DNA from: Diplonema papillatum
Taxonomy: Eukaryota > Euglenozoa > Diplonemea > Diplonemida > Diplonemidae
Direction: 5' to 3'
NCBI GenBank assembly: GCA_030068145.1
Contig: JAPJBO010000174.1
Coordinates: 62,001 to 126,000 of the forward strand
DNA length: 64,000 nucleotides
A program made the position numbers and the translations under genes. The first letter of the stretch is position 1, and each line of letters begins with the position of its first letter. Below are positions 637 through 44,334 of the stretch, one piece after another. The notes beneath the pieces were generated by a model. It made no database searches and was not told the DNA's origin. It was given only the letters and a program-made list of their open reading frames with translations.

Positions 637-2048
637 AAGACTCCGCACATGCGCGTCAGGCTGTCCGTCGGGGGGAAGTTTCCCATCAAGGTGTCGGCCG
701 CAGCCGTAGGCAGCGCAGTCGCGTGAAAGAAGAGGGCCGCAGCGTTACAAGGCGGCGATCCTCAGCGAGACGAGCTCACCCGCCGGCCAGAGCGCCCGCT
801 GCAGCGCCAACTCCGGCGCCGCCACTCACTGTAGCAGAGCCAGCGCGCCTCCGGAGCGACTTACGCCCGCCGTAGCAGCACGAAGAGAAGTGAGCAGACC
901 GGAAACTCCCCGGAGAGATGGTCCCTGCACTCTATCTCGTCTCCCTTTCTCTCCTCGGGGTCCAAAGCGCTGCGTGTTGGTTCACGGATACAACCCTGAG
1001 CGGAGCAGCATCTTCAAAGCAGGCAGAGCCCTGCCTTGGAGCAGCCCGCAAAGGAGGGGGGCATCAATCACCTCTGTCTGCCAGACAGCAAGTTGCTCTA
1101 CCATCTGGTGACACCCTTTTATGATTAAATGCCTGAGAGGTGTACCCCAGCCTTCTGAACACCTGCTGTACTCAAGGAACTTCAGCTTCTGCGTGCAGGC
1201 CGGCAATGTGGTCTGGACATAGTCAGGTGCCTAGTTTCTCCATGCTTTGAGCGACGGAGCCGAAATGGCCTCCGCAATGCGTACCTTCGCAGACGGTGCG
1301 ACTTTCTTCCTCAATTGAGCCGTCTTCAGCGGCAGGGACGGTGCCCACAGTGATTTTTTCCGTTCGATGACTCGCGACCGCCGGGATCACACGCGGCGCA
1401 AAGGCTTTCCTTGCATCCTTGCCCCGCTGGACGTGGCCGACCTACTTGCCTCTTGACGCGTCTTCTTTCTTGTCCAATTCTGCGCGAGAGTGTGCTTGCT
1501 GTGGTGGGCGAGTGTGTTCGAAGTATCCCCTTGTTATGCGTGAACAGGCGGAGAGACTGAAGCATCGAAGCCACCCAGATGCAAAGGCGGATGCACCTGT
1601 GCTCGTCATGTCAAGAGAACCATTGGAGCGTTAGGGCTACGATATAGTTGTTGCAGTCTCGGCCTATGCGCTGGGTTGACGGTACCAGCTTGAGATGTCA
1701 AGTTGCCCACCATGCCGCAGGAAAACTCCGGCTACCTCGTTTGCGCACATGCACGATCTTGATGGAGGTTGCACGAAGAAAAAAGACAGGCGCTTCGTTT
1801 TCTTTGTGCGCGCCGGTTGCACGTTTTCCCTGCACGTTTTCCCACTTGATTCTACCCTGTGTCATTTTCAAAGGAATTCCGATCACACCACCAAAACACG
1901 TTCGCCTCCGTCTTTTTGGCCAGATTGTTTACGTTACGAAAATAACGGGAAGGGCAAACCGCCAGTACAACGCAACGTAGGACCGGGCCTGTGCCCAAAG
2001 GAGGGAGCGAGGAGTGGGAAGGTAAGGGGGTGCTGGGCACGCTTGCTG
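637..2048. other. Intergenic region
   Basis: No convincing coding segment. It holds one copy of dispersed repeat R1 (about 826-950). An open frame runs upstream of the next gene from about 1695, but its translation there is unlike the gene that follows, so it is probably not coding. Confidence 0.6.
826..950 (+). repeat. Dispersed repeat R1, copy 1
   Basis: About 110 bp shared with copies near 13573, 24286 and 35071. The common core runs from CGACTTACGCCCGCCGTAG through ACCGGAAACTCCCCGGAGA to GGTCCCTGCACTCT and ends in a CT-rich TCTCTCT tail. This copy and the one at 35071 are closest and share extra sequence on the left (GCGCGCCTCCGGAGCGACTT). All four copies have the same orientation. Confidence 0.85.
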
Positions 2049-5000
2049 ATGTCGCAGCGCCACGGGTGGGCGTGCAGCAGCTGCGCGGTGGTGAACGACC
2101 TGAGCAGCGCTGTTTGCAGGTACTGCGGGGTGCGGTCTCCGATCGTGTATTTGTCGTCGAAGCCGCGGCACGAGCCGCCGGCCGTGCGGTCCCCGGCGGG
2201 TGCGCGGGAAACGTCCGGGTTTCGGGCCCACCGCGCCTACAGGCCGACCGCCGACGACCTCGTCTGCACGGCGCGCGCGCTGCAAGGCGGCGTTTTGCCG
2301 AAAAAAGCGGGGCCGCCATCGCCGGCCCTGCCGTGCTCTTCCCACGCGTTCTCGCACGCCTCGTCCGTGTCGCTGGCCCTGACGCACGACGGCCGGGACG
2401 GCCCCGCCTGCGCCGCAACTCCGTCGTCCGCGAGAGACGCGCGCCGCCCGGCGGTGGCGGCGTACGATGCGCACCGGCTGCTCTGCTCGCCGCCGCCGGC
2501 CCCGCTGGGCGGTGGGGACGGGCGGGGCACGCCGGCGCCGCTCCGGGCGCAGTCGTTCTCGACGAGTGCCGCCGGGGGCTTCCCGGGCGGCGGGCTCTCG
2601 CGCCCAGGGTCGAGCGCAGCGCCGAGCGTCGTTTTTGATGGGCCCCCGCAAGACTCTGGCAGCAGACATCTCGTTCACCCCGCGTTCTCGACGAGCGGGG
2701 CGCAGGCCGGCGGGTTCTTCTCGCGCCCAGGGTCGAGCGCAGCAGCGCCGAGCGGCGTTTTTGATGGGCCCCCGCAAGACTCTGGCAGCAGACAGCTCGT
2801 TCACCCCGCGTTCTCGACGGGCGGGGCGCAGCCCGGTGCCGCCGGCGGCGGCTTTCCTGGCGGGCAGGCCGGCGGGTTCTTGTCGCGCCCAGGGTCGAGC
2901 GCAGCAGCGCCGAGCGTCGTTTTTGATGCCCCCCTGCAAGACTCGGGCAGCAGACAACTCGTTCACCCCGCGTTCTCGACGAGCGGGGCGCAGCCCGGTG
3001 CCGCCGGTAGCTTCCCGGGCGGGCAGGCCGGCGGGTTCTTCTCGCGCCCAGGGTCGAGCCTAGCGCCGAGCGTCGTTTTTGATGCCCCCCTGCAAGACTC
3101 GGGCAGCAGACAACTCGTTCACCCCGCGTTCTCGACAGGTGGCGTGCAGCCCGGTGCCGCCGGGGGCGGCTTCCCGGGCGGGCAGGCCGGCGGGTTCTCG
3201 CGCCCAGGGTCGAGCGCGGTGCCGAGCGTCGTTTTTGAGGGCCCCCCGCAGGACTCGGATAGTAGGTTGCTCGTTCACCCGGCGTCGTGCCCCGCGGCCA
3301 TCGGGCGGTACGAGCCGACGGAAGCAAGCGGCCGGCCGCCTTTTTCCGACGCCGCCGACGCCGTCCGCCTGCAGCCGCTGCACCCCTCGCTCAACCCCGT
3401 GCGCCGGAGCCTCGCGACCGAAACCAGCGGCCAACGCGCGCCGCGCCCCGCTGGAGACCCGCAGCTGCCGCAGCTCCTCCCCGGCGCTCCCTGCCGAAGC
3501 CGCGGGCGAGGACCCGCGTCGACCCAGCGGTTCACGGCGGTGCCGGGCGGCCGCTCGGAGGGGGAGCAATGGAACGCGAAGCGCCCCCCGCCTGCCGCAA
3601 CGCCACACGACTCGGCGGGGTCGGGTGGCGAGGCGGCGGGCGGTGCCGAACGGCGCGTGCTCTCGGAACGCAGCGAACTCGGTGTGGGGCGCTTTCCAGC
3701 CGGGGATCGTTCCGCGCTTTGTTCAAAGCCGGGACGTGCTGCAAGCAGTGCGCGCAGTACCACCGTTGAGCATCCATCCGGACGCTCAAACCTCGACGAG
3801 ACAACCGCACGCAGGGCACACGGTGGAATGTACTCTTCGTGTGAGGCTCCCGCGCATGCAACGCCGGATGAAGTCACCAACAGCATGCACAGCGCCAGGC
3901 ACCATCCATCCGGACGCTCAAACCTCGACGAGACAACCGCACGCAGCGAACACGGTGGAATGTACTCTTCGTGCGAGGCTCCCGCGCATTCAAAGCCGGA
4001 TGAAGTCACCGACAGCGTGCACAGCGCCAGGCACCATCCATCCGGACGCTCAAATCTCGACGAAACAACCTCGAGCTGCGCAAACGGTGTGATGTACTTT
4101 TCGCGCGAGGCTACCGCTCGTTCAAGGCCGGATGGGGCCACAATCAGCATGCGCAGCACCAAGCACCACCCATCCGGGCGCTCGAAGCTCGACGTGGCAA
4201 CAACCGCAGGCAGCAGCACGCACAGTGTGATGCACTTTCAATCCGGGGTCCCCGTGCATTCGAAGCCGGATGAAGTCGCAAACAGCATGCACAGCACCAA
4301 GCACCATCCGTCCGGAAGCTCAAACCTCGACGAAACCGCACGCAGCGCACACAATGTTGTGTACTTTCCGTGTGAGGCTCGCGCGCATTCAAAGCATGAC
4401 GAAGTCACAAACAGCATGCACAACACCAAGCACCATCCATCCGGACGCTCAAACCTCGATGAACCCGCACGCAGCGCCCACGGTGTCATGTACTTTCCGT
4501 GTGAGGCTCCCGCGCATTCAAAGCATGACGAAGTCACAAACAGCATGCACAGCACCAAGCACCATCCATCCGGACGCTGCAAGTTCGACGAGGCACTTGC
4601 AAGCACGCACGGCGCGAAGCACCTCCGACCAGAGGGAAAAAGCGGCGGGCACCCAAACCTCGAAAGCCCAGCCGCCAGCGACCGGCACCGGCCCCCGCCG
4701 GCCCACGGCGCCGCGGCACCCCCCACCTTCCCCGGCGCCGGGCTGCGCGCGGTGTATTCGGGCGGCGAGCCGGCCTTCGGCTACCGCTGCCCGACGCCGA
4801 CGCCGCTGCACCCGCTCCCGCTGCAAGACGACCCCCCGGCCCAGCCGCCGGGGGCCTGCCGCAGCGCCGCCGCCGAGGGGAGGGGCTGCGTGGTGGCGGA
4901 TTCGGGCACGATCGAGCTGTACGCCGACACGCCGTCTTCGGCAGGCGCGCGGCGGCCGTTCGGCGAGTTGCCGGTCAACGGGATGGGCAGCGATGGGAAG

Positions 5001-5606
5001 GGGGGCGGGGACTGGCTGGAGGCGGCGTGCGCTCGGATCTCGGAGGAGGACAAATCGCGGTCGCTGGCGTCGGGCGGTTCGTCGTATTGGGACGAGCCGC
5101 CGTCGAGAATCCTTGCAGCGACCCCGGAGCCGGCGGCGCCCCGGAAACGGCCGGCGAACGGCCGCACCTCCGGCGCCGTGCAGCTGCGGCCGCTGCCCGC
5201 GGCGGCACACCAGCATCCGAGAAAAAGTGGAGAGGATCCCAACCCGGTCCCAAGGCAAGGGTTCTGCGGGGCGGCTGAAGAAGAAGAGGAAGTGGTCGTC
5301 ATCCTCGACGACTCCGGCCACGAGCAGCTGGGCCGCGCCGGGATGCACACGCAGGCGCCGCTGCTGGTCCTGCGGGAGGGTTCCCCGTGCGGGGCCAGCG
5401 ACGACGTCGAGGAGCCGCACTTCGGCTCTCCGACGGCGAGCGACTGGCAGCGCCGGCGGGCGGTTGCGCAGCTCTGCCAGCAAATCGCGGACGGCGACGC
5501 GTCAAGCTGCTCGCCTTCGGGTCTCTCCGAGTGCTCGATGCGCAGAGCGCTTCAGTACATAGGCGCGCAGCCTTGCGTTCCGCCTCTTGTGTACGACTTG
5601 AAGTAA
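2049..5606 (+). CDS. Low-complexity protein with RanBP2-type zinc finger, two internal repeat arrays and a C-terminal SIM-like motif
   Basis: About 1185 residues if translation starts at the ATG at 2049, chosen because the zinc finger follows at once (MSQRHGWACSSC). The finger has the RanBP2 form W-x-C-x2-C-x10-C-x2-C (WACSSC ... VCRYC), a fold that binds ubiquitin or RNA. The body is Ser/Pro/Gly-rich with two arrays: five copies of a ~40-55-residue unit (RPGSSAAPSVVFDGPPQDSG) and seven copies of a ~43-residue unit (HPSGRSNLDETTAR). Near the end EEEEEVVVILDDSG has a hydrophobic run flanked by acidic residues, the form of a SUMO-interaction motif. The conserved-looking C-terminus (SDWQRRRAVAQLCQQIADGD) is copied again downstream. 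No known full-length family recognised. A ubiquitin- or SUMO-linked scaffold is only an inference. An upstream exon cannot be excluded. Confidence 0.7.
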   Translation: MSQRHGWACSSCAVVNDLSSAVCRYCGVRSPIVYLSSKPRHEPPAVRSPAGARETSGFRAHRAYRPTADDLVCTARALQGGVLPKKAGPPSPALPCSSHAFSHASSVSLALTHDGRDGPACAATPSSARDARRPAVAAYDAHRLLCSPPPAPLGGGDGRGTPAPLRAQSFSTSAAGGFPGGGLSRPGSSAAPSVVFDGPPQDSGSRHLVHPAFSTSGAQAGGFFSRPGSSAAAPSGVFDGPPQDSGSRQLVHPAFSTGGAQPGAAGGGFPGGQAGGFLSRPGSSAAAPSVVFDAPLQDSGSRQLVHPAFSTSGAQPGAAGSFPGGQAGGFFSRPGSSLAPSVVFDAPLQDSGSRQLVHPAFSTGGVQPGAAGGGFPGGQAGGFSRPGSSAVPSVVFEGPPQDSDSRLLVHPASCPAAIGRYEPTEASGRPPFSDAADAVRLQPLHPSLNPVRRSLATETSGQRAPRPAGDPQLPQLLPGAPCRSRGRGPASTQRFTAVPGGRSEGEQWNAKRPPPAATPHDSAGSGGEAAGGAERRVLSERSELGVGRFPAGDRSALCSKPGRAASSARSTTVEHPSGRSNLDETTARRAHGGMYSSCEAPAHATPDEVTNSMHSARHHPSGRSNLDETTARSEHGGMYSSCEAPAHSKPDEVTDSVHSARHHPSGRSNLDETTSSCANGVMYFSREATARSRPDGATISMRSTKHHPSGRSKLDVATTAGSSTHSVMHFQSGVPVHSKPDEVANSMHSTKHHPSGSSNLDETARSAHNVVYFPCEARAHSKHDEVTNSMHNTKHHPSGRSNLDEPARSAHGVMYFPCEAPAHSKHDEVTNSMHSTKHHPSGRCKFDEALASTHGAKHLRPEGKSGGHPNLESPAASDRHRPPPAHGAAAPPTFPGAGLRAVYSGGEPAFGYRCPTPTPLHPLPLQDDPPAQPPGACRSAAAEGRGCVVADSGTIELYADTPSSAGARRPFGELPVNGMGSDGKGGGDWLEAACARISEEDKSRSLASGGSSYWDEPPSRILAATPEPAAPRKRPANGRTSGAVQLRPLPAAAHQHPRKSGEDPNPVPRQGFCGAAEEEEEVVVILDDSGHEQLGRAGMHTQAPLLVLREGSPCGASDDVEEPHFGSPTASDWQRRRAVAQLCQQIADGDASSCSPSGLSECSMRRALQYIGAQPCVPPLVYDLK
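2599..3285 (+). repeat. Coding tandem repeat array, ~120-160 bp unit, 5 copies
   Basis: In-frame units encoding RPGSSAAPSVVFDGPPQDSG then LVHPAFSTSGAQ, with a variable Gly-rich spacer (PGAAGGGFPGGQAGG) that sets the unit length. Length differences are multiples of three, so the frame survives. Units 2-4 are the most alike, as expected from unequal exchange. Confidence 0.9.
3766..4620 (+). repeat. Coding tandem repeat array, ~132 bp unit, 7 copies
   Basis: Units start HHPSGRSNLDETTAR and continue GGMYSSCEAPAHATPDEV then TNSMHSA. Later units have diverged and lost or gained codons in the middle, but the HPSG(R/S)..LDE core is kept in all but the last two. Confidence 0.9.
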
Positions 5607-6300: not shown

Positions 6301-7401
6301 CGATTTCGAACCAATGCATGAAATCTAAACTTGTCAATGGGCAGGTCTGGTGCCAGCTTCCGCGGTACTTCCAGCACCCACAGCGTGTGTTGCTGTTAAA
6401 AAGCTCGTACTTGGATTCGGAGCTCAGGTTGCAAGGTGGCCCAGTTTGCTGACTGCTGGGGGCAGCCATTCTCCTTTGGCCATTTCTGTTGGCGTCTTCA
6501 CGCATGTTGTATCCGCTTTTTCTTCTTCTGTGTGCAGCAAGTACTAACAGGTGTCTTTCCACTAGAATAACTCGTGCGAATGAAATCCTTTTCGCTTTTA
6601 CTGTTCGCATTTCTCTTGGACCAGAGTACGAAAGGTTGTCTTTGACAAGGCTAGTCCCATTCGAAGCCAGATATGTGGAAGCAGGTTGTTTTCAAGAGCG
6701 CGACCCAAAAGGTCAGAGCTGCGTTGGCGGGTGCCATTGAGCACTAACGCCGCATTCGGTTCAAGTGATCGGCCAGTAAAGCGCACGCTCGCGCCAATAA
6801 GTGCATCGCAGAGGACTTCAGCATGGGGTGTTTTACTTTGTGTGGTTGTGTGCATTCCATTCCAAAGAGCGTCTGCAGAATGCGATTCAAACTCCTTGGC
6901 TGCGTGAGGAGGAGAAGTGTATCCGTCTTGCTTTGCTTCCGCTGCACACACAATGCCATTCTTCATATTTCACTGTCGAGAGATACGCTGTGGCTGGGAG
7001 AAGCACTGGCTGGACCGTATAATTAAGAAATAACCCCAACACCGTGCAGGAGCGGGCGGCGCGATAGCCAAGCAGGGGCGGGGGGTGGGTCTTCTATTTT
7101 TCCTTTCGATCAAGAGTTTCAGTTTTTCCGGGCGCGGGTCGCATGCGACCGACGGAGTGTGCCACATAGATTCAGTGCTGCTTCATCAGGGCAGGACAGG
7201 AAGGAGGGCGGGGCGTCAGGGGGGGTGCACGGGCAGGGGGAACCCGGACGGGGGGGGGGGGGGGGGTTTGACACCCCCCCATTTTTACTTCTTGTTTTCG
7301 ACAGCGAACGAGCAAAAGAAACAGTCTAGAATAAAACAGTACGCGTTTTCTTTTTCGTTTTTTCTTTTTTTTTTTAACTTCAATTTTTTAAGAAGCAAAC
7401 A
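6301..7401. other. Intergenic region upstream of the first antiporter
   Basis: No coding segment supported. An 18-base G run lies at about 7249-7266, followed by GTTTGACACCCCCCC and a pyrimidine-rich stretch (about 7347-7378) just before the antiporter start. TATAATTAAGAAATAA at 7018 is AT-rich, but nothing ties it to a promoter. Confidence 0.5.
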
Positions 7402-8802
7402 ATGAAGAGCAAGAACGCGGAGGCTGTGATCCTCGCTGTCGTGCTTTGGTTTGTTACGTATTTGGTCATTGGCGACAATGCGCTGCCGGGCGAGCCTTTG
7501 TTTCCCATGGTTGCGCTTTTCGTCGCCGCCAACTTCGGCGGCCTGATACAAAGAATTCAGATAAAGTCGGTGGCCATACCGGGGTTACTCGGGATGATCA
7601 TCGTCGGTGCTGTCCTAAGAAACACGGGGGCATTGAAGGGGAGGAGCGACGACTGGAGTTCCGCGATGCGGACCATCGCATTGGGCATCATCCTGACGAG
7701 AGGCGGGTTGGCGCTTGATTTGAGTGCGTTGAAGACGCTGGGAAGGCCCACCGTTTTGATGTCGTGTCTTCCAGTCTTGGGTGAGGCCGTCACAGACCTT
7801 CTGCTTGCGAAAGCACTGACGGATCTCCCTTGGGCGTGGTGCTGCATGCTAGGGTTCATCCTCGCAGCCATTTCACCGGCGGTCATCGTCCCCCATCTGA
7901 CAGAGCTGCAGGTTTTAAGGTACGGAACGCAACGCGGCATTCCTTCCATGCTGCTGGTCGCTTCGGGAGTCGACGTTGTCATCGCCGTTACCGGATTTGG
8001 TATCTGCTATGGCATAGCTTTTGAGAGCTCGTTGGCCCTGTCCGTGGCAAAGGGACCCATCGACATTGCCATCGGCTTCGCCGCCTCCGGAGCTCTGGCG
8101 TATATGTACGCGAAGCTGTTTGACTCCGATTTGTGCAGCGACGGGTTCAAGGCGGCGCTGTTCCTGCTGACCGGGATCGCGTGCACCTTTGGCTTTGGCA
8201 AGCTCGGGTATTCGGGGGGAGGGGCCCTCGCCACGATGCTGATGGGCGCCTTTGTGCAGAAGCTGACGAGCTATGATATCAAGGCCCTGAACCAGCGCTT
8301 AGCAGATTCATGGGATCTAGTGGCGAAGCCGCTGCTCTTCGGGTTGATCGGCGCCGCGATCGATGTCGAGACGTTGACGGGGCGGACGGTGCGCAATGGG
8401 GTGATCATCTTATTCGGCGGTTTGGTGGTTCGTCTGGCGATGGTCAACTTGTCGATTGCTGGCAAGGATTTGACTCGCAACGAGCGAATTTTTGTTACGC
8501 TCGCGTGGGTGCCGAAGGCGACTGTACAGGCAGCGCTGGGACCGAGTGTGCTTGACTACATACGAGACGACGACGATGCGACCCCTGAAGAAGAAGACTG
8601 GGCTCAGCAAATCCTCACCATGTCGGTGCTGGCCATTCTCATCGCCGCTCCCTTGGGCGCTGCTTTCATAGAGGTGTGCGCGCCTGATTTCACGTGCACT
8701 CTGCCTCATTGGCTCCTCCTGGTGCACCTGCAGCAGCGACTGGTTGTCATGCCGGCCCCCTGGGTGCTTCCAAAATGCGTGCAAACGGGGTTCGATCCGT
8801 GA
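7402..8802 (+). CDS. SLC9B/NHA-like cation:proton antiporter, paralogue 1
   Basis: Membrane protein of about 466 residues with roughly 12-13 hydrophobic segments; a CPA2-type monovalent cation/H+ antiporter by family. Family signatures seen: LGIILTRGGLALDLSAL, LPWAWCCMLGFILAAISPAV, VPHLTELQVLRYGTQRGIPS and WVPKATVQAALG, the last containing the conserved Lys. In the ion-binding helix, where SLC9B proteins have Asp-Asp (SFDDILAI in human NHA2), this protein reads SGVDVVIAV: the first Asp is kept and the second is Val. The ATG at 7402 (CAAACAATGAAG) directly precedes the first membrane segment, so the cytosolic N-terminus of animal NHA2 is absent. The tail after IAAPLGAAFIEV is unlike the family; GAG|GTGTGC at about 8671 could be a donor for a short 3' intron, so the last ~43 residues are uncertain. 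Confidence 0.88.
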   Translation: MKSKNAEAVILAVVLWFVTYLVIGDNALPGEPLFPMVALFVAANFGGLIQRIQIKSVAIPGLLGMIIVGAVLRNTGALKGRSDDWSSAMRTIALGIILTRGGLALDLSALKTLGRPTVLMSCLPVLGEAVTDLLLAKALTDLPWAWCCMLGFILAAISPAVIVPHLTELQVLRYGTQRGIPSMLLVASGVDVVIAVTGFGICYGIAFESSLALSVAKGPIDIAIGFAASGALAYMYAKLFDSDLCSDGFKAALFLLTGIACTFGFGKLGYSGGGALATMLMGAFVQKLTSYDIKALNQRLADSWDLVAKPLLFGLIGAAIDVETLTGRTVRNGVIILFGGLVVRLAMVNLSIAGKDLTRNERIFVTLAWVPKATVQAALGPSVLDYIRDDDDATPEEEDWAQQILTMSVLAILIAAPLGAAFIEVCAPDFTCTLPHWLLLVHLQQRLVVMPAPWVLPKCVQTGFDP

Positions 8803-9033: not shown

Positions 9034-10006
9034 TTGCTTTCGCAAAAAAAAAACGTCCACCATCTCTCATCACTTACACAAACGTACACGGTCTGCAAAT
9101 ATAAAAAGGCATTCGAAAACGCGCAGTTCGACGTTGAGCCTTTTTCGTTTTTTGTTTTTTTTTGGGTGTCGTGTTGTTTCACAACACGACACCAACACGA
9201 AGACAGCTCAAAGCATCTGCAGAATAACACGAAAAGCCGCTATGCAGAAACCCGTTTTTACATTTCTTGTGTGCAACGACAGTGAATCGACAGTGGCCGG
9301 ATCCGCAGCCTGCAAGCGGACGACTTTGTGATGGGCCGCAAGCACCCGAGCGATAGATAAAGGTTGCGGTGGCTGCCTTGTTGCTTCAGCGCCCTTGCAG
9401 CAAGTTGGCTTCTGCTCCGAGATCCATCGTGACCCTTGCAACCGTTTATGGACAAGTGTCAGCGCTTTTTGAACAGGTATTGTGCCTAGTCCAATCCCGA
9501 TACCATTACACGAGGTGGTCTGCACGCCGCCATTGTTGTAGCTGCTTCGCACTGGCCCGAGTCTTTCCAGCTGTGCGATGCAGTCGGTCGCACCGCAGTC
9601 GCCGCCGCCGGATTGCAGTTGCGCTTTTAATTTAAGACTGTATCACGAAAATATCAGCCGCTGACAAAAAAGCGGGGCACAAGCTCGCTCGAAACGGCCG
9701 GCCGAGGTCAACCTGGCCAGCAAATCTTTTTCTGAACGGCAGTCCCGAGGGCATTTCCCGACGCAAAAAAAAAAGAACTGCGATAATATAGCCAAAATAT
9801 AGCGGTAGGATCCACAGTCCACGCGTTGCATAATATTCCCCACCCTCCCCCTTTTCGTGCAGGTCTCTAGACCCTCCCCCTCCGCCGAGTTGTTCTTCAA
9901 GCCGCGGCGGTCACGCGCGAGCGAACAAGAAAAGGAAAAAAGGGCAAGAAAAGAATACCCAAAAGAGTAAGGTCAGTTCCTTGTTGCCCCCAGGTTCTCG
10001 CGCACC
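9034..10006. other. Intergenic region between the antiporter paralogues
   Basis: No coding segment supported. It contains A and T runs (9042-9051, 9154-9163) and a short palindrome GTCGTGTTGTTTCACAACAC at about 9168. The 100 bases before the second antiporter are purine-rich (AAGAAAAGGAAAAAAGGGC). Confidence 0.55.
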
Positions 10007-11419
10007 ATGAACCGCAAAGGCGTCGAGGTGGCAGCGCTCGTTGCGCTGGTGTGGTTTATTTCGTGGCTGCTGTTGGATTCGGATGCTTTGCCCAACCAGC
10101 CGTGGTTCCCGGTGACGCTGACGTTCGTTGCTTCCATGCTCGGCGGGTTCGTGCAGAAGCTTCGCATTGGGTCGGTGGCCGTCCCGGGGCTTCTCGGCAT
10201 GATCCTCGTAGGCGCCATTCTGCGCAACTCCGGTGCTCTGGACGGGCTGAAGAGCACTTGGAATTCGTCGATTCGGACCCTTGCTTTGGGTGTGATCTTG
10301 ACTCGCGGCGGGCTCGTGCTCGACCTGAGCGTTCTGAGGTCTCAAGGAAGATCGGTATTGCTGCTGTCCGCTTTACCGTGCCTGGCAAGCGCCGTGACCC
10401 ACGCTTTAGTGGCGAAAGCTTTGACGGACATGCCTTGGGTCTGGTGCTTGATGCTCGGTTTCATCCTGGCCCCTGTCTCTCCAGCGGTGATTGTCCCGAA
10501 CTTGACGGAGCTGCAGGTGGGCAAATACGGCACCGCGAAAGGAGTCCCTTCGATGCTACTCGCGGCTACCGGGGTCGACGTCGTTGTCGCGGTGACCGGA
10601 TACGGCGTGTGCTACGGGCTCACCTTCGACTCGTCCGTCCCCATGTCCATTGCGAAGGGCCCGATCGGTATAGTCGGCGGCGTCATCATCTCGGTGATCG
10701 CGGCCTCCCTCTTCGCGAAGCTTTTTGATTCTCCCCTCCCCAGCGATGGGTTTAAAGCTGCTTCGTACCTCCTGGCCGGTCTTTCTTGCATGGTGGGGTC
10801 GTACAAGTACGGCTACTCGGGCGGCGGTGCACTGGCGACTATGCTTACGGGTGCCCTTCTTCGGAGGTGGACCAATTATGATCTTGGGTTGCTGACCAAT
10901 ACGTTGGCAGCCGCATGGGAGCTCGCAGCAAAACCTCTTCTGTTTGGGCTCATTGGAGCGGCCATTGATATGGATGTGATGACCGGGCAGGAGGTGTTGC
11001 ATGCCCTCGGTATCTTTGCTGCCGGGCTGGCGGTGCGCTTGGTTATGGTCCAGGTTTCGCTGCTGGGTACCAACCTGAACCTGAACGAGCGCATGTTCAT
11101 AATGCTTTGCTGGCTCGCAAAAGCCACGGTTCAAGCGGCGCTGGGTCCGAGCGTGCTGGACCACGTTCAAAAGCAAGGTGACGTGGATCCAGAGGAGGAG
11201 TCGTGGGGGCAGCAAATCCTGATCACGTCCGTGGTCGCCATCATTATCGCTGCGCCCATCGGCGCTGGGTGCATCGAGGTATCCACTCGTACCCTCACCA
11301 TGAGCCAACAAGAAGAAAGCAAAAAAAAAAAAAAAAAGAGAGAGAGAACCGTCGCTTCAAGATGCACACAAAAAACGAACGATTCGATAGCAGCAGAAGG
11401 ACCCGCTCCTTGCCGTTAG
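10007..11419 (+). CDS. SLC9B/NHA-like cation:proton antiporter, paralogue 2
   Basis: Tandem paralogue of the upstream gene, about 470 residues with the same architecture: LGVILTRGGLVLDLSVL, MPWVWCLMLGFILAPVSPAV, VPNLTELQVGKYGTAKGVPS and WLAKATVQAALGPSVLDHV (PKAT has become AKAT). The ion-binding helix reads TGVDVVVAV, so it shares the Asp-to-Val change at the second position. Start ATG at 10007 (GCGCACCATGAAC) matches paralogue 1 in position. After IEV the tail becomes Lys-rich, coded by an A16 run at about 11320, and a GAG|GTATCC donor-like site sits at the position equivalent to that in paralogue 1. The true C-terminus may therefore lie beyond an intron. No intron is needed within the membrane domain. 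Confidence 0.88.
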   Translation: MNRKGVEVAALVALVWFISWLLLDSDALPNQPWFPVTLTFVASMLGGFVQKLRIGSVAVPGLLGMILVGAILRNSGALDGLKSTWNSSIRTLALGVILTRGGLVLDLSVLRSQGRSVLLLSALPCLASAVTHALVAKALTDMPWVWCLMLGFILAPVSPAVIVPNLTELQVGKYGTAKGVPSMLLAATGVDVVVAVTGYGVCYGLTFDSSVPMSIAKGPIGIVGGVIISVIAASLFAKLFDSPLPSDGFKAASYLLAGLSCMVGSYKYGYSGGGALATMLTGALLRRWTNYDLGLLTNTLAAAWELAAKPLLFGLIGAAIDMDVMTGQEVLHALGIFAAGLAVRLVMVQVSLLGTNLNLNERMFIMLCWLAKATVQAALGPSVLDHVQKQGDVDPEEESWGQQILITSVVAIIIAAPIGAGCIEVSTRTLTMSQQEESKKKKKKRERTVASRCTQKTNDSIAAEGPAPCR

Positions 11420-17952: not shown

Positions 17953-20900
17953 ATGATGCAAAACAACCCCCTGCCCCAGCAGCATTACGGCGGAGGGTAT
18001 CCGTCAGATCCCAACGCGGCCGGCTACGGCAACTACGGGTCGCAGCAGCAGAACAATGCTTTCGGAACCGCCGCGAACAAGACCGAGACGCTGGACGACA
18101 TCTTCGGCTCGATGCAGCCGGCTGCTGCGACGTCGACGCCTTCGACCAATCTAAGCGCGTACTCCGGAATGGGCGCCATGGCCGGAATGAGTCCCGCCAT
18201 GAGCAATATGGGCAACACGGGAAGCATGAACATTATGGATACAATGGGTCACGTGAACAACAACATGGGAAACATGGGCAATTTGGGTGACCAGGGCATG
18301 GGCGGCATGCTTGGTGGCGGGGTGCCATCTACCGCGTATTCTACGAATGGCCAGCTTCCCAATGCCAACAACTTTAATGGCGCCCATATGAACTACCCGA
18401 TGAACCCTGCGATCGGGTCGTCTGTTATGAGCAACGACTCGTCGACTGCGGGGAGGCACTTTGGATCGTCGGCAGGGAACGGCATCGGGTATCCGGATGT
18501 GGCCCTTGCTCACACCTCCCTAGCTACGCAACCCAGTTACTCATCGCAGCCCCATGCCGGTCTCGGGTACGGCGGTTTGCCGGAGAACAACTTGATGATG
18601 GGGCCCCTTGGCAACCAGGGGTACGGCGCGCCGTCGTCTCTTAACAACGCTGCGGCCGTCGGCAAGGCCCCCGTATCTGGCAACCTCTCGCACGCGCTCC
18701 TGCAAAGCTACCGGCTTTCGAACGACGGGGCGGCGATGGGCGGCGTGAACAGCGGAGCGGGGATGAATCCGGAGTTCGGCAGCGGGCCCGGGCTGTCGGG
18801 CAGTGTGCTGCCCGGGATCGGGCTCGGCGCGGCGGGGGGCATGGGCATGGGCATGGGCGGCGGCATCGGGAAGGCCGACACGTTGAACTCGCTGCAAAAG
18901 ATGCGGCAGGACATCCAACGGGAGAACGAGGAGCGCGAGCGGCAAGAGCTCGAAAGGGAGAGGCAGAGAGAGCGGGAGGCGGAGCGGCAGAGGGAAGAGG
19001 CGCGGAAGAAGGACGAGTGGACGTGCCCCGTGTGCACGCTGGGCAACCCGACCACGTCCGCCAAGTGCAACGCGTGCGAGACCCCGGCGCCCCCGGGCGC
19101 CTGCCGCCAGCCGCCCAAGTTCGACCCTTCGCAGTACCTCACCACCGCGCAGCAGCAGCACCTCGCCTCGCAAGGCGGCGCGTCGGCCGCGGGGTCTTCC
19201 TGGACCTGCAACAAGTGCTACCACTCTGCCAACAACGGTCACGAATGCCGGGTATGTCGTCCATGTTCCTTCGACTTCGGAAACACCACTACCACCGGGC
19301 GCCTCCCTTCGCAGATGATGTCTTCGAGGCACTTCTGTGGACTGGTTCAGAGAATTCCGCGAGAATTGCTGGAAACATGGAGGTTGTGTTAGTCTGGTAG
19401 TAATATCGGGAACGCTTAAGTTTTCATTTTTAGAGCCAGGTCAAGTGGCTACCGATTTCCCAAACTAAAGCATCAAGGCTTGGCGCACCTTGGGCTTGGC
19501 GCTCGCGCTGAACACAAGCTCGTCGAGACGGTCAGCCGCAGGGCAGAGCGGACGGGGTTGTGGCACTGTGCTGCCTCCGACTCAAGCTTTGCAAGCTGTG
19601 GTTAGCCGTCACGTTCCTTGACCAGGAGCGGCCTGTTTCTCTTTTTCTCTTCTTTCTTCTTCTTCGTGCTGCACCTGATTGGGGGGGGGGGCAGCCTGGA
19701 ACTTTGCTTGGCCCTTGACCCCCGCCTACGGTGAGGTCCTTTTTGGGGTTTTTTTTGGTGGCCTTACCAGCCTCACGACAATGGGGGGGGTCCGGGGGGC
19801 TTCGCCCCCCGGCGAACGGTACGGTACATGAGTTTGCTCGAAATGAGCGGTCCGGGGGCCACACCACTCGGCGACCCGTTCCAGCAGGTACTTTACGGTC
19901 GAATTGGGCAGGTAACGCTCGTGTAACGCTAGTTTACAGCCATACTTGGTATGTCACGCTCATGTAACGCTACGTTACAGTCGAATTTGACATGTCACGC
20001 TCGTGTCACGCTACTTTGGAGTCGAATTCGACATGTAACGCTCGTGTCACGCTACTTTACGGTCGAATTGGGCAGGTAACGCTCGGGTAACGCTAATTTA
20101 CAGTCATATTTGGTATGTCACGCTCATGTAACGCTACGTTACAGTCAAATTTGACATGTCACGCTCGTGTCACGCTACTTTGGAGTCGAATTCGACATGT
20201 AACGCTCGTGTCACGCTACTTTACGGTCGAATTGGGCAGGTAACGCTCGGGTAACGCTAATTTACAGTCATATTTGGTATGTCACGCTCATGTAACGCTA
20301 CGTTACAGTCAAATTTGACATGTCACGCTCGTGTCACGCTACTTTGGAGTCGAATTCGACATGTAACGCTCGTGTCACGCTACTTTACGGTCGAATTGGG
20401 CAGGTAACGCTCGGGTAACGCCAGTGAGCCTTGGCCAGTGGCGAACGAGGGTGGCAGGCTCGTCTACAAAGTGTGTCTGAGCCCTTCATGAGGTAGAGCC
20501 GATGAACATGCATGAGCTTCGAGTATTGTCTGCGCCTGTCCCGTGTTCCAGCGAGCATACCTTTCTGCAAAAACCTAGAGACAAGTCAATATCGAAAGCC
20601 CTGGTGAAGTTCAGACGTGCTGATGACTCGTCAAGCGAAGGACATTTCGTACCATAAACGGCTAACAGGACAATTCTGCTGGAAATCTCAGCTAGCTTGC
20701 CAAGCCAGCATCCCTTCTACCGTGCGCCGGATGGAGCCCTCCCGGACCTTCCCCTGTCACACAGCATCACGCGGCGTTAAAAGACCAATATCGACCGTCA
20801 CACAGCATCACACGACAACGTAACCAAGCCAAATTCGACCGTCACAAACCGCCAAATTCGACCGTCCCACAGTGTAAGCCTGTAAGGCCACCTGTTTGTT

Positions 20901-23126
20901 GTGTACCGTGCCCCCCCGGACCCCCCATGCAAGCAGTTTGATTTACCGTACCGTTCGGCGGGGGGTGAAGCTCGGACCCGGAGTCGTGCGGGTAGGGCCA
21001 TGTACTTGCATTTTTACTGAAACCTACCTACCGGTAAAACCTGACGGCGAAGGTGGTCTGTAGGGAAACAGTCAGCGAAAATTTTTTTTTTTTGAGTGCC
21101 GGAATGACCTAAAAACCGCGCTTCGTAAATTTTTTTTCGCCCCAATTTCCCAGGAGGTTTTGACCATTTCACCTTAGAGAATCTGGTGTCCACCCAAAAA
21201 AAACCTAAAACCCCTGCTTGGCCCTTGGCCCCGAGGCCCAGATCTTATGTTCCACCCTGGGGGGAAAATGTTTCTTGGGGGGGGGGGTGCTAATCCGAAG
21301 CAGGGGTTTTGAGGTTTGTTTGACAGCAGGAGGGGACGTGGGTCAACCGACAGCTGACCTGAGGTGTCCGAGTAATTGCTCATCAGATCCCGCGAAGTGT
21401 GTGCGGTTCATGACGGAGATCTTGTTTCCTTTTGCGATGCACACAGCGAGCATCAAGCGATCAACTATGGCACGCGAGTCGCCACGCAGCAAGGCAGCAA
21501 ATGAAGTTAAGTGGCCATTCTATGCGGACAACTAAAAACGGCAGGTTTGCGGTGCGTCGAAGTCGGCAGCCAGCCAGCCGATCTCAACCGGCCAACCAGC
21601 TGCGCCGTCGAGCGGCAGCTCCCCTAAGGTAGGTCCCGACGAATGGGAGTGCGAGCAATGCACGTACGTTTGCAAGTTGTCAAACGCCGCCTGCACTATG
21701 TGCGACGCTCGGAAAGTATGCCTGCTTCCGTTTTCTGCCGTGCTCAACTGTCATTCGCACGCGCGTGTCAGACACAGCGATCTCTACTGCCTATCACGGA
21801 ACAACGAACCGTCCGCTTTCAGTTTGCTACTTTCGCTCCTACCAAACACCGAAGGAAACGAAGCCCGTTCGGGAAAAGGAGATGTCATTTCATAAAAACC
21901 ATTTCACAGCCTCAAAAGGTTATTGATCGCGAAAAGCTGACTGCGAGTCCCGACGGTTGGGCGTGCCCCATGTGTACGCTTGTGAGCCCTTGGTCTGCTG
22001 CAAGGTATGTGCCATTCCGTTCTGTTCAGTGTGGAATAAGGTGCGGGCAACATATCTTCCGACGGCGAACACAGAAGATGAGGAGGAAAATTTACCCAGC
22101 GCCCCGTTCTTCTCTGCTCACTGCAGGTTGCTCACTTTGCAGTGGGCCTGTTGGTTGCTACACCTGCTGCTAGCTCCGAGAGGACGAATGCTACCGCGGG
22201 GTTCAGCCACCAACTGCGAGGGGCCAAGGTGTTGGCGCGAACCAGGAAGTCGTTTTCTTTTCCCGGACCTCAGACGTCTGAGGGTACACGGTGGAACCAG
22301 TCTGGACCTCGCGCTGAACGCGGACACGGAAAAGAAACAAGCAAACCGGTGCGGGTGGGTGGGAACTTTTGTTTTCCGTTTCCTTTGGAATCGGGTGCCC
22401 AGCACCGTCCTGGTTAGTGGTTCGTTACGCGCTTAGCAGTATAACATTTCCCACCGACAAACCCGGAACCTGCTGCTTCCGATAGCCTGGGCGTTTAGGT
22501 TGTTCGGATCGTCATGAAGAAGCGGGCGACGGAGCTTCAGAACCTCAGCGTTCGACGCTTTGAGCTTCTTCCTCAGCTTCGCAAACACCCTTCATTTTCC
22601 AAACAATACGCTCGCTTCGAAGAACCTCTGAACTCTGAAGTTGGCTCTGGACCTCATCGAGATCGTTGCCTTGGTCATTCCGCTGCGCACTTCGCAACTT
22701 AACACAAGCAGGTGCTCAGCGTGCAACACGAGCGCGCCGCAGCGCGCGGGCCAGCGGCCGAATACGAGCCTGAGTGCGATGCCGGCAGCTCCCGCCGGCG
22801 GCGGTGGGACGGGGTACCCGAGCTCGTCGTTTCTCAACCGGGGGTTCCCCGCCGGCGCGGCCACGAAGAGCCCGCGGGGCGACGACGGCAAGCAGGGCGC
22901 CGGCAAGAGCGGCGGCCGCGAAAAGATCATGTGGCAGAGCGACACGGCGACGACGAACTGCAACAACTGCAACAGGCCGTTCACCCTCACCCTGCGCCGG
23001 CACCACTGCAGGCTCTGCGGCTTCATCTTCTGCCACCCTTGCTCCTCGCACACAATCACCGTCCAGGGAAGCCTGGTCCCCGAGCGTGTGTGCGACGGTT
23101 GCTTCAGCAGCCGCTTCGATTCGTGA
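17953..23126 (+). CDS. Multi-RanBP2/NZF zinc-finger protein with C-terminal FYVE domain (4 exons)
   Basis: Exons 17953-19251, 21545-21715, 21910-22004 and 22712-23126 join in frame with GT-AG introns to give about 659 residues. Residues 1-310 are Gly/Asn/Met/Gln-rich and disordered, with a DDIFGSM motif near 50. Residues about 312-354 are a highly charged Glu/Arg helix. Four RanBP2-type fingers follow: W356 (WTCPVCTLGNP), W417 (split by intron 1, ECR|VC), W467 (WECEQCTYV) and W507 (split by intron 3, SAA|RCSAC). The two split fingers are complete only after splicing, which independently supports the model. Residues about 596-656 are a FYVE domain with all three PI3P signatures: WQSD, RRHHCRLCG and RVC. 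FYVE domains bind PI3P on endosomes, and NZF-type fingers with CT(L/Y) bind ubiquitin in other proteins. A ubiquitin-sensing endosomal role is inferred, not shown. Confidence 0.85.
19800..20972. repeat. Inverted-arm structure enclosing a satellite, inside intron 1
   Basis: The left arm (about 19800-19842, CTTCGCCCCCCGGCGAACGG then TACGGTACATGAGTTTGCT) reappears inverted at about 20928-20972 (AAATCAAACTGC in the inverted strand, then ACCGTACCGTTCGGCGGGG). A poly-G block with TCCGGGGGG lies beside each arm but in swapped order. Between the arms lie the 164-bp satellite and, at 20785-20875, inverted satellite-like segments (AATTCGACCGTCAC). The whole reads as a large imperfect palindrome within the 2293-bp intron. 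Confidence 0.7.
19891..20420 (+). repeat. Higher-order satellite: 41-bp monomers in a 164-bp unit, ~3.2 copies
   Basis: CTTTACGGTCGAATTGGGCA recurs at 19891, 20055, 20219 and 20383, an exact 164-bp period. Each unit is four related 41-bp monomers starting CTTTACGG, CTAGTTTACAG, CTACGTTACAG and CTACTTTGGAG, each ending with two GTAACGCT/GTCACGCT motifs. Copies 2 and 3 are virtually identical; copy 1 is slightly diverged. Confidence 0.92.
21075..21190. repeat. Dispersed AT-rich repeat R4, copy 1
   Basis: Shares T/A runs and the block TGACCATTTCACCTTAGAGA with 41591-41735 in intron 2 of the first cullin. Partial inverted ends (AAGGTGGTC on the left) suggest a decayed TIR element. Lies in intron 1, just outside the inverted arms. 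Confidence 0.55.
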
Positions 23127-31830: not shown

Positions 31831-32784
31831 CATAGGTTAGGTCGCTTCTTCCGTCACGATCACACAATCCTGGAGGCGGCAACACTGAACAACGACAAGC
31901 TCGCACAAACTATTGCCCGCCTGTTATCTTGTACTTCGAATACTTCATCACAGCTCGACCAAGTAGTTCTCTGTGATTCACCCACCTCCAGCATCATCCC
32001 GATGTTGTCGCCTGGAAACGTGCGCTTCCTTGATAGCAGGTGGTTCTAGCCCACGCATGTTGGCACGTTGTATCGAGGATTGCCATTTGTATTCTTGCAG
32101 TGATGACGTTCTCCCCGCTGACGGGAAGCCTCGTCTGTCACAGTACCATTTACACCAAAGGAAACGCATCGCCGCTACCTTGTTTCACCGCTTGTATTCT
32201 TCTGTTGCTCCGCTGTCCTGTCGGCCAGCATGACGCCACTTGTAGCCCCAATTATCAGCAAAAAGGTTTAAGCCGCCGAGCCCTGAGAATTTGTTGCAGG
32301 TTGCACAAGAGTTAGCACGTGCGACCACGACCCGCCAAGGTGCGCAAAGAAGAAGCTAGCTCCGGGTCCAGCGTAGCGGCCAACAGGATGCTGAGCTAGA
32401 TTCGGACAAGCACGAGTCAAACTAAGGGCCTCGGCGTTTGCGCTGAACACAAAGCCGTAGAGACGGTGGCCATTGTGCAGAGCTGGCGGTGTGATACACT
32501 GGTGCTCGCAAGAAGGGAAGGTGTCTTCTATCCCAGCCCCACTACACAGCATGCATCGGGCTGGACCTCAGGTCGAACGACACCAATCCCACGGGGTCGT
32601 AGCACAAAACTTCACAAACGTCACAACGACAACTCACCTATTCCAGGCAGCAGCCCATCCCACACACGCAAGGGGATACGTGGCGGGAGGCGAGTGCGGC
32701 GGGTTTGTCATGCAGTGTTAGCGGAGCCAGTGGGCGCGTACTGTGTGGCACCGAAAGCACCCTTTTTTTCCCCCCCGAGAGCCA
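31831..32784. other. Intergenic region
   Basis: No gene supported. A segment near 32428-32480 (TTTGCGCTGAACACAAAGCC) resembles 19500-19535 in intron 1 of the zinc-finger gene (CTCGCGCTGAACACAAGCTC), an old dispersed repeat. Confidence 0.5.
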
Positions 32785-38360: not shown

Positions 38361-39569
38361 GACTCTCGCGGCCGACACGCATCCCCTTTCAGTGTTTTTG
38401 CCGCCGATTCAGAACCGTGGACACATACCATTGTTGTCCAACTGGTCCGAAAGGCACCTTCCCCGCCTCGGTCGCGTCCGAAATTGATCGATCGCGAAAG
38501 AAAGCCCCTTTGAAGAACGATCTCGCAACACTGCGAAGGGAACGCGGAGTCGCTTGGAATGTTGAGCCGGTCCGTCCCTATCACTTGAAGATGCATCGAA
38601 GTGCCTGCCGCTGTTTATCACAGTGAATCACGGTCCACCACGGTCTATCAGGTCCATCCCTAGTCCCTAGAGCTGCATCGAATTGCCCGGTGCTGAATTA
38701 TTCGGTCTATCACGGTCTATCAAGAGGGGATGGACCGGCTCAAATGTGGCGTCAGCAGCTGCAGCACTCCAGTACTGCTGCTTCCTCCCTTTTAAGTGCG
38801 GCTTGCATATCTGACATCCTGAGCCCACATAGTTGACTCCTTGGTCCGTGTTTCGTAACGGGTGGTGATCATCCTCGTGTCTGATAGTGCGTAAGGCCAA
38901 CAGGGGCTAAAACGCATATTCATGCCGCAGCTGCAGAAGCGGAGATGCGTAGTACAGTACCTTAAACAACAACAACAAGGCGGACCGATATTGGCAATGC
39001 AAGAGTCAGTCCTGCTGAGGGGCCCCCTACCTACATGATACATCACACTAGCCATGTGCCTCTATGGCTCCATCTACTACCACAACCTGATGCTACGTCT
39101 AGCAATGCGCAAGAGTAGGCAAAGGTAGAAAGCTTTTATCGGTGTGAGTGTCACCAACTCTGGCCTGCGAAGGCCCTCACACTGATGCCGCCCAGTGCTC
39201 ATTTACACTCTCTAAATGTCCGGAGCGAGACGGTGCTGTGCCCACCTGTTTCTACCTTTTGTTGTGTAGCGGCGTTCTCATATGCATCCGCGCAAAGCTT
39301 GTGACGCGGAGCGCAGTCTGCAAACGAGTCAAACCGCCTGCTGCTCACCACACACGACACACCCGAACACAGAGTTCGGGGTGCGTGTTGAATACCAAAT
39401 CGAAAATCCAGAGGGCCGAAGCCTCGGAATCGCTCACCCCGGGGAGGGTGACGGTGACGGTGACGGTATCAATTGAAAGCTGTGAAGGCAACCGGGAGGG
39501 GAGGCGGGGAGGGAAGCGCAAGCAAGCGGGCGAGCCTCCAGAGGGGTTGGTTCAGGGACCTCAGCAGCC
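38361..39569. other. Intergenic region with an M2 element
   Basis: Holds M2 copy 2 (38562-38743). The last 130 bases before the cullin start are purine-rich and include GGTGACGGTGACGGTGACGG at 39448. No coding segment supported. Confidence 0.5.
38562..38743. mobile_element. TIR element M2 (MITE-like), copy 2
   Basis: 182 bp. TTGAGCCGGTCCGTCCCT at the left and AGGGGATGGACCGGCTCAA at the right are inverted repeats (one mismatch in the first 16). ATG flanks both ends, a likely 3-bp target duplication. The interior has GGTCTATCACGGTCTATCA direct repeats like those of copy 1. No coding capacity. Confidence 0.78.
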
Positions 39570-42500: not shown

Positions 42501-44334
42501 AGACGAAGTTCAAAGGCCACCTGGCAGAGAAGAAGATCAGCTTTGGCTTCGACTACTCGATGCAGGTTCTGACCACTGGATGCTGGCCTTCGTTCCAGAT
42601 TCATACCCTCAACGTCCCTCCGCAAGCAAAGGCTGCCATGGACGAGTTTGCAGCTTTCTACGATTCAGGCACACAGGTTTGTGAGTGTCCCTTATTTGCA
42701 GCGCAGATAGCAAAAATAGTTCCTGGCTGTATTATTTTTCCTTTTTACCGAAAGAAGCTCTGCAGTTTTCCTCAGGGGATAGCTCAAACCGAAACGGAGG
42801 TACAGAGGGCAATGCTCGCCAGTTCAAGGTCAATGGGCACTCAGACCGATCCAAGCTTCCATCTCTTGCGAAGCTGAGATCTTCAGTACACCGATTGCAG
42901 TTTTGGACTGACAAGGATTTTTGGTGTTGCAATAGCACGTGATCAATTGACAAGATTCACTACTCACCATGATGGGCACATGCGTCCCTGGCATTAAAGG
43001 CATTGGCAGGTCCAGGAGTACCACACCGTTGTTGACACAATTCCCACCTTGTCAGAGTCGCAAGCTGCGGTGGGTGCATTCGCTGGGCACGGTCACGTTG
43101 GACGGCTTGTTCAACAAGCAGAAGTTCCAACTGCAGATGACGACGTTCCAAGCCTGCGTGCTGCTTCTTTTCAACCAACGAGACGTGTTTTCAGGCGATG
43201 AACTCGTCGAGGAGCTGAACCTCCCATGGGAGGAAGTGAAGAAGGCGCTGCAGTCTCTCGCGATGGGGAAGTTCCGCCTCCTTCTCAAAGACGTTGTCGA
43301 GGGCACCAAGGGATCGAAGGGTGTCGAAGAAGCTGACACTTTCCGCGTCAACAACGACTTCACCGACAAGTCCAGAAAGCTCAAGATTCCGACGGTCGTC
43401 GCGAAGGCAAATTTGAAGAACTCCCAGCAGGTATCCTGTCGCCTTTTGCAAGCACCATCCTCCGCTTTTTTGCCACGAAGCGTTGGTGTAGTATGTTTCT
43501 ACGAGTTGAAGATCCTCTGGAAAGATTTTCACAGAGGTCACTAATAGTCCTCAGCCAAAGTGACAGTTGCGATCGTCCACCTTAAGACGAATGTATTCCT
43601 TTTCAAGGTGTGTGTATTGCGTCTGTTTAGCAGTGCAGAACCCGTAGCCAAAATTTGTTCAGGTGCAGCAGTCCGTCGAGGACACGCGACGCCATGCGAT
43701 CGAGGCCTGTATCGTCCGAATCATGAAGAGTCGCAAGCAGATCGAGCATCCAATTTTGGTATGTATCCACCACCGAGTGTAGACGGACAATTCGTGTCCA
43801 AAGCTTGTCCCGCTGTTTTCTTAAAGGATCGTCATTCTTGTCCGTGTGTGAAGCATTTCAAGGGTTAATATTTCCAGAGAGCCGAACAATAACGAACGTA
43901 CTCAGCAACACTCTATCCACGTGTAGCCACCGCCTTTACCAACACGTTGCGATCACCGTAATGATGCAATTGTTGACAACACGAGTCACACAAGGAGACT
44001 TCCGGAGGTTCAAGTGAACTTTCTTTCGCGATTGTCAGTGTGTATCTCTGTTTCCGGGTTTGTGCATCCTCCGTCTCTTACGTCGCTAATCATCAACCCT
44101 TTGCCCAAACGGTGCCCGTCTCTGCGGACTTGTTTGGAGCTGGGACGGTGTCGACCGAAAACCATACGTAACCAACCTTTTGAAAACACTCAGATCTCCG
44201 AGTGCATTGCACAACTTTCAAACCACTTCACGCCTGATCCGCGGCACATTAAAAAGCGCATCGAGGAGCTCATCGCGCGTGAGTACATAGAGCGTGATGC
44301 CGAGAAGCCGAGTCTCTACAGATACTTGGCTTAG
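39570..44334 (+). CDS. Cullin, CUL1-class scaffold of a cullin-RING ubiquitin ligase, paralogue A (6 exons)
   Basis: Exons 39570-40742, 41079-41233, 42352-42676, 43056-43430, 43663-43758 and 44194-44334 join in frame to 754 residues, normal for a cullin. N-terminal cullin repeats: RRWENHKMIVKTTVKLVGYL and EYMKKAEQRLMEEAQRAEAY. The cullin-homology domain spans exons 2-4 (FQEFYR|KQLSKRLL, LTTGCWPSF, SRKLRWVHSLGTV). The C-terminal winged helix carries the neddylation site VRIMKSRK, predicted Lys698, and ends in YRYLA like other cullins. Cullins hold adaptor and substrate receptor at the N-terminus and the RING protein Rbx1 at the C-terminal domain. CUL1 class is judged from overall similarity. 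An identical exon plan is found in paralogue B 5.7 kb downstream. Confidence 0.93.
41591..41740. repeat. Decayed TIR-like element R4, copy 2, in intron 2 of cullin A
   Basis: CTCTCTAAGGTGGTCACC on the left and TGACCATTTCACCTTAGAGA on the right form partial inverted ends, with A/T-rich and repeated CCCCAAATA sequence between. The right end and the A/T runs match 21075-21190. A run of about 14 Gs follows at 41767-41780. Confidence 0.55.

Follow-up and report, generated by a model that had tools for sequence, protein, structure and literature searches.

A predicted four-exon gene of Diplonema papillatum joining four RanBP2-type zinc fingers to a C-terminal FYVE domain: a candidate endosomal adaptor

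Binding of phosphatidylinositol 3-phosphate (PI3P) and of ubiquitin or components of the endosomal sorting complexes required for transport (ESCRT) by a single protein is a workable design, as HRS, Vps36 and FREE1 illustrate. HRS joins a FYVE domain to a UIM (PMC12051064). In Vps36, the NZF-N finger binds the Vps28 subunit of ESCRT-I, the other NZF finger recognises ubiquitylated proteins and the GLUE domain binds PI3P (PMC6379464), an account matched in outline by PMC4276913. The plant protein FREE1 comprises a disordered N-terminus, a FYVE domain and a coiled coil (PMC12051064), with the disordered region driving the formation of condensates that interact with membranes (PMC11525194). According to the sections consulted of one review, canonical ESCRT-0 is confined to opisthokonts, its place in other eukaryotes being taken by TOM1-type proteins (PMC12051064), and the recognition of ubiquitinated endosomal cargo outside the animals and fungi is for this reason only partly known. 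Here we describe a gene from the diplonemid Diplonema papillatum whose predicted product would bring a FYVE domain together with four RanBP2/NZF-type zinc fingers. The gene lies in a 64,000-nucleotide stretch of contig JAPJBO010000174.1 (positions 62,001 to 126,000 of the forward strand), referred to below as the window, and all positions are those of the window.

The gene runs on the plus strand from an ATG at 17953 to a stop codon ending at 23126 and comprises four exons (Table 1) that together read without stops as a protein of 659 amino acids. The N-terminal half of this protein is rich in Gly, Asn, Ser, Ala and Met and is followed by a charged segment, four fingers of the form W-x-C-x2-C...C-x2-C and, at the C-terminus, a FYVE domain. 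We propose, with moderate confidence, that this single four-exon gene encodes a peripheral endosomal adaptor that would engage PI3P through its FYVE domain and ubiquitin through its third finger; the protein is probably a membrane-sorting adaptor whose parts are known but unusually combined. The presence in one chain of a canonical FYVE domain and an NZF finger with a full ubiquitin-binding motif makes it a directly testable candidate.

The FYVE domain is recognised by Pfam (PF01363) at 8.9e-19 in the whole protein (67.8 bits against a cut-off of 27.8) and at 7.6e-21 when the domain is searched alone, and in the PDB it matches LM5-1 (1z2q, 1.7e-17) and EEA1 (1hyi, 2.6e-16). All the features that define FYVE membership are present, namely the eight zinc-binding cysteines and the WxxD, R(R/K)HHCR and RVC motifs, and in a three-sequence alignment with EEA1 and LM5-1 the eight cysteines, W6, D9, R27-R28-H29-H30-C31-R32 and R57-V58-C59 are invariant. 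That the domain would bind PI3P, as the original prediction supposed, is thus well supported by sequence. Because the lipid-site motifs are completely conserved, the domain, which is followed only by the tail RFDS, would with high confidence anchor the protein to a PI3P-bearing membrane. A 71-residue part of the FYVE exon product, modelled with AlphaFold2 without an alignment, gave a mean pLDDT (predicted local distance difference test) of 44.4, too poor to use.

In its six unspliced frames the window has four occurrences of the finger pattern W.C..C.{9,11}C..C, three in this gene and one elsewhere, and 30 copies generated by a first-order Markov model have none, which indicates that the pattern did not arise by chance. 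The loop is C-x9-C in finger 2 and C-x10-C in fingers 1, 3 and 4. The occurrence elsewhere, a second RanBP2-type finger pattern (WACSSCAVVNDLSSAVCRYC) at 2067, belongs to a separate, repeat-rich open reading frame (ORF) of 1308 amino acids (1680-5606) for which Pfam returned no match at E up to 0.01.

Pfam was searched with the 659-amino acid protein at an E-value of up to 1, with filters that remove most weak matches above about 0.1. As a whole it matches zf-RanBP (PF00641) at 1.6e-8 and Vps36-NZF-N at 0.006 (16.4 bits, under the cut-off of 27). Taken singly, just one of the four fingers, finger 1, passes the curated zf-RanBP cut-off of 27 bits (1.8e-10, 40.3 bits); this finger also matches Vps36-NZF-N at 8.9e-4, under the cut-off. 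Fingers 3 (7.4e-4, 19.2 bits) and 4 (0.24, 11.2 bits) score below the zf-RanBP cut-off and finger 2 has no zf-RanBP match in Pfam, its matches being sub-threshold ones to DUF7129 (0.036) and Zf_2nd_IFT121 (0.21) only. In the PDB, finger 3 finds its best match in NZF1 of TRABID/ZRANB1 (6.5e-4), finger 4 matches Nup153 (0.0015) and, weakly, HOIL-1L, and finger 2 has weak matches to Gfi-1, Nup153 and RBM10.

The canonical contact between an NZF finger and ubiquitin is made by a T-Y/F-Phi motif, represented in TRABID NZF1 by Thr14, Tyr15 and Met26; replacing Thr14/Tyr15 by Leu/Val left binding undetected (PMC4386031). HOIP NZF1 (T360, F361/I372) binds ubiquitin with a dissociation constant of about 135 uM (PMC9294000). 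Finger 3 carries this motif as T-Y-M and is identical in alignment to TRABID NZF1 at Thr14, Tyr15, Ser20, Thr25 and Met26. Judged by motif, therefore, one finger in four is a good candidate for ubiquitin binding, and T-Y-M of finger 3 would be expected to contact the Ile44 face of ubiquitin. Fingers 1 and 4, which read T-L-A, may bind ubiquitin weakly or, by analogy with the NZF-N finger of yeast Vps36 and Vps28, dock a partner protein.

A number of results weigh against the proposed adaptor. The full motif is confined to one of the four fingers, with finger 2 lacking even the Thr, and the suggestion in the original prediction that ubiquitin is read by avidity of all four is not supported in that form. 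Within finger 3, Cys and Lys take the place of Asn17 and Trp18, which form a second ubiquitin contact in TRABID, and a TRABID-like preference for K29/K33 linkages is not predicted. Finger 4 matches rubredoxin marginally better than zf-RanBP (0.18 against 0.24), both under the cut-off. None of the P[ST]AP, NPF, LYPxL and clathrin-box patterns was found in the 659-amino acid protein, which contains a single D-I-F, at residue 49; this counts against a direct equivalent of HRS. Searches for relatives in viral contigs gave one peptide-pattern stretch for the finger-FYVE region, three for the FYVE domain alone and 20 for the three-sequence FYVE alignment, and 13 were found for the finger-FYVE region in genome contigs; none was confirmed by tblastn, leaving no homologue among the viral, bacterial and archaeal DNA searched, although given the make-up of these collections the missing homologues say little. 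Finally, finger 1 looks most like the fingers of nucleoporins, its nearest relatives in the PDB being RanBP2 (5.4e-20, a value summed for the chain over many fingers) and Nup153 (3.3e-7).

This last resemblance, together with the incomplete motifs of fingers 1, 2 and 4, would fit a scaffold that is anchored by PI3P and uses its fingers to bind partners other than ubiquitin, such as Ran-GDP, an ESCRT subunit or a NEMO-like coiled coil. Such behaviour has precedents in the binding of Vps28 by Vps36 NZF-N (PMC6379464) and in HOIP NZF1, which binds NEMO by a surface apart from its ubiquitin site (PMC9294000). However, finger 1 retains the NZF Thr (T-L) at a position where none of the nucleoporin fingers listed has Thr (these read L-V, L-L, L-A, S-L, S-Q, C-V or Y-V), and finger 3 has a complete ubiquitin motif. 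We regard a scaffold of this kind as possible but doubtful, and continue to favour an adaptor in which finger 3 contacts ubiquitin.

Two further ideas about the fingers were considered and set aside. Weak matches to RNA-binding fingers were seen, to ZRANB2 for fingers 1 (0.035), 3 (0.12) and 4 (0.29), to FUS for finger 1 (0.14) and to RBM10 (0.094) and RBM5 (0.26) for finger 2; an RNA-binding role is not favoured, as fingers 1, 3 and 4 rank such fingers below nucleoporin or ubiquitin-binding ones and the matches of finger 2 are all weak. Tandem duplication of a two-finger unit is likewise unsupported: fingers 2 and 4 are both interrupted by introns but these differ in position and phase, and, with finger 2 left out, it is fingers 1 and 4 that are most alike (14 identities in 25, compared with 10 for fingers 3 and 4 and 8 for fingers 1 and 3).

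The original proposal that four exons splice to give four fingers and a FYVE domain is supported by a frame that is consistent across all exons (intron phases 0, 0 and 2), and the single-gene model, with junctions placed from the DNA sequence, holds up. The three donors are GTATGT, GTATGC and GTATGT and all three acceptors are CAG. Of the 3722 GTs on the plus strand of the window, 15 belong to a GTATGY; these include the donors of this gene, three in number, and three others within a tandem array in intron 1. This support is not strictly independent, for although the donors were retained because they keep the frame and complete the fingers, the ranges searched had been picked by eye from the raw sequence. 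The window's two cullin genes, whose junctions were placed by comparing the two paralogues with each other, offer a local comparison: an acceptor could be placed at eight of ten block starts, all eight being CAG, and a GTATGY donor was present at two of ten block ends (one junction, in both copies) and absent from the others.

At junction 1, 11 GT/AG pairs keep the frame open, one of which (19252 with 21544) yields both the C-R-V-C of finger 2 and the remainder of exon 2. When GT/AG pairs for junctions 2 and 3 were enumerated in short ranges, with junction 1 held fixed, four stop-free combinations survived; the sole differences among them are one inserted residue at the last acceptor and an exon 3 acceptor lying nine bases downstream. 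Of the 52 AGs in 22005-22900, that before 22712 is the only one to bring back the finger 4 C-x2-C in the correct phase, compared with eight of 3752 across the window. For finger 2, seven of the 129 AGs in 19300-21640 complete the C-x2-C; four AGs in this range stay open in frame to finger 3, and among these only 21545 also completes finger 2.

It had further been suggested that two of the fingers are completed only by splicing. This is true of finger 4 but not of finger 2: because the donor GTATGT itself encodes Val-Cys in frame, unspliced exon 1 reads HECRVCRPC and finger 2 is complete before a stop at 19392. Retention of intron 1 would thus give a 479-amino acid protein with two fingers, and in-frame ATGs at 22779 and 22929 in the exon 4 ORF would allow a short product containing FYVE alone, so that the locus could comprise two genes or isoforms, the FYVE product being separate or alternative. 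Against this, in-frame GC content at third codon positions (GC3) is 0.87 over the final 46 codons of exon 1 but 0.59 over the 46 codons read through beyond the donor, a value below those of all 17 windows along exon 1 (0.65-0.98; 0.82 for the exon overall). The exon 2 ORF has no ATG ahead of finger 3, and the middle fingers thus need an upstream exon; joining exons 3 and 4 completes finger 4; and the GTATGY donor and CAG acceptor recur at all three junctions. Separate products are, on this evidence, improbable. GC3 is also high in exon 4 (0.89 in frame), whilst exon 3 is too short for the measure to be informative (0.52 in frame against 0.55 and 0.61 out of frame).

Table 1. Positions of the gene's exons, introns and predicted protein features in the window
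Feature	Position	Strand	Residues (aa)	Remarks
Exon 1	17953..19251	+	1-433	Start codon, low-complexity N-terminus, charged segment, finger 1, most of finger 2
Low-complexity N-terminal region	17953..18912	+	1-320	
Glu/Arg-rich segment	18895..19008	+	about 315-352	
Finger 1	19018..19077	+	356-375	WTCPVCTLGNPTTSAKCNAC
Finger 2, exon 1 part	19201..19251	+	417-435	WTCNKCYHSANNGHECR; completed by VC at 21545-21550
Intron 1	19252..21544	+		2293 bp, GTATGT...CAG
Exon 2	21545..21715	+	434-490	Finger 2 end, linker, finger 3
Finger 3	21644..21703	+	467-486	WECEQCTYVCKLSNAACTMC; only finger with full T-Y/F-Phi ubiquitin motif
Intron 2	21716..21909	+		194 bp, GTATGC...CAG
Exon 3	21910..22004	+		Start of finger 4 (21958 onwards)
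Finger 4	21958..22004 + 22712..22724	+	507-526	
Intron 3	22005..22711	+		707 bp, GTATGT...CAG
Exon 4	22712..23126	+		Finger 4 end (to 22724), Gly/Ala-rich linker, FYVE, stop
FYVE domain	22932..23111	+	596-655	4 residues from C-terminus

The composition of the first 320 residues (Gly 19%, Asn 11%, Ser 11%, Ala 11%, Met 8%, Gln 5%) suggests that this region is disordered, and by analogy with the disordered region of plant FREE1 the N-terminal half may promote clustering. The segment that follows (Glu 23%, Arg 21% and Gln 11% over residues 300-352) is a putative single alpha-helix or coiled coil. Two matches to the LC3-interacting region (LIR)-like pattern W/F/Y-x-x-L/I/V, at residues 180 and 206, bear on the idea that the protein is a selective autophagy adaptor, placed by FYVE on the phagophore and by its fingers on ubiquitinated cargo. 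There is a parallel in the oomycete FYVE protein PsAF5, which serves mitophagy, though its ATG8 binding did not need the FYVE domain (PMC10912746). Two matches are what chance would give, however, since shuffled versions of the protein had at least two in 1761 of 2000 cases (mean 3.4), and nothing else separates a role in autophagy from an endosomal one; we consider autophagy distinctly improbable and the endosomal adaptor the better account.

Intron 1 contains a mobile-element-like insertion (19705-21232). Its inverted arms, at 19799-19862 and 20908-20971, are 73% complementary across 64 nt; there are also outer arms at 19742-19758 and 21194-21210, and near-identical 18-bp direct repeats at 19705 and 21215. 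Inside it lies a tandem array with a 41-bp period (13 copies, 80% match) and a higher-order unit of 164 bp (3.2 copies at 98%). Weak matches to intron 1, both at about 74%, lie near 41633-41730 and 32427-32492. A second 41-bp array at 45707-48194 (about 61 copies, 96% match) has the same period but a different unit, and three minus-strand ORFs (712-840 amino acids) read through it. Elsewhere in the window, an uninterrupted 2160-amino acid ORF (55892-62374) that matches Ion_trans in four stretches and also has a GPHH domain resembles a four-domain voltage-gated calcium channel in one ORF, and adjacent tandem ORFs at 7378-8802 and 9971-11419 encode one Na_H_Exchanger domain each. The cullin paralogues are arranged in tandem (about 39486-44331 and 49946-54573), are 68% identical over the first block and have conserved blocks that break at the same places. 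A fragment matching eukaryotic large-subunit ribosomal RNA (51396-51540, 63 bits, model positions 2623-2763) lies between conserved blocks 1 and 2 of the second cullin, and so probably in its first intron.

How, then, does this protein compare with those already described? The original prediction knew of no standard family with this domain order. The pairing of FYVE and zf-RanBP is already in print and is not new: a 2010 survey includes Zf-RanBP among the Pfam domains associated with FYVE (its Table 1; PMC2837644), the sections consulted not stating species, order or finger count. Four fingers in array, with a low-complexity N-terminus ahead of them and FYVE at the C-terminus, were not seen in the literature searched for the domain pair, which covered few subscription papers. 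In the sections available, PMC4506424, PMC12211564, PMC6379464, PMC8394649 and PMC4276913 have both kinds of domain, or one, in separate proteins. The survey also reports that 78% of FYVE-associated domains are confined to one taxonomic group (PMC2837644), and the 272 FYVE proteins of Phytophthora sojae, with their varied domain composition (PMC8233823), suggest that, in one protist group at least, FYVE is commonly shuffled.

Finger 3 is akin to the NZF fingers with T-Y/F-Phi found in TRABID/ZRANB1, HOIL-1L, TAB2 and Npl4, and is closest to TRABID NZF1, from which it differs by the Cys and Lys noted above. To our knowledge, none of these proteins has a FYVE domain. With HRS/Vps27 the protein would share a FYVE domain on PI3P and ubiquitin-binding modules in one chain. 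HRS, however, has a VHS domain, a double UIM and clathrin-binding segments and is reported only in opisthokonts (PMC12051064), and Pfam found neither VHS nor UIM, at E up to 1, in the protein described here. With Vps36 it would share PI3P binding and NZF fingers, finger 1 resembling Vps36-NZF-N at a sub-threshold level; Vps36 binds lipid via GLUE rather than via FYVE as predicted here (PMC6379464), and neither GLUE nor winged-helix domains were matched by Pfam in our protein. FREE1 resembles it in combining a probably disordered N-terminal region with a FYVE domain on PI3P, but has a C-terminal coiled coil after FYVE and binds VPS23, and the sections consulted of the review make no mention of NZF fingers (PMC12051064). 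Here, by contrast, FYVE occupies the extreme C-terminus, the fingers precede it and the charged segment precedes the fingers.

Overall, the protein may be a cargo-capturing adaptor of ESCRT-0 or ESCRT-I type built from different modules. A more ambitious version, which we think unlikely, would make it an independent ESCRT-0 substitute in a lineage without canonical ESCRT-0, with a condensate-forming N-terminus, finger 3 on ubiquitin, finger 1 on ESCRT-I in the manner of Vps36 NZF-N and FYVE on PI3P. The parts are familiar, as is the way in which they probably act, so the protein is of interest for convergence rather than for a new mechanism: were this version true, the protein would have converged on HRS and FREE1 from a different set of modules.

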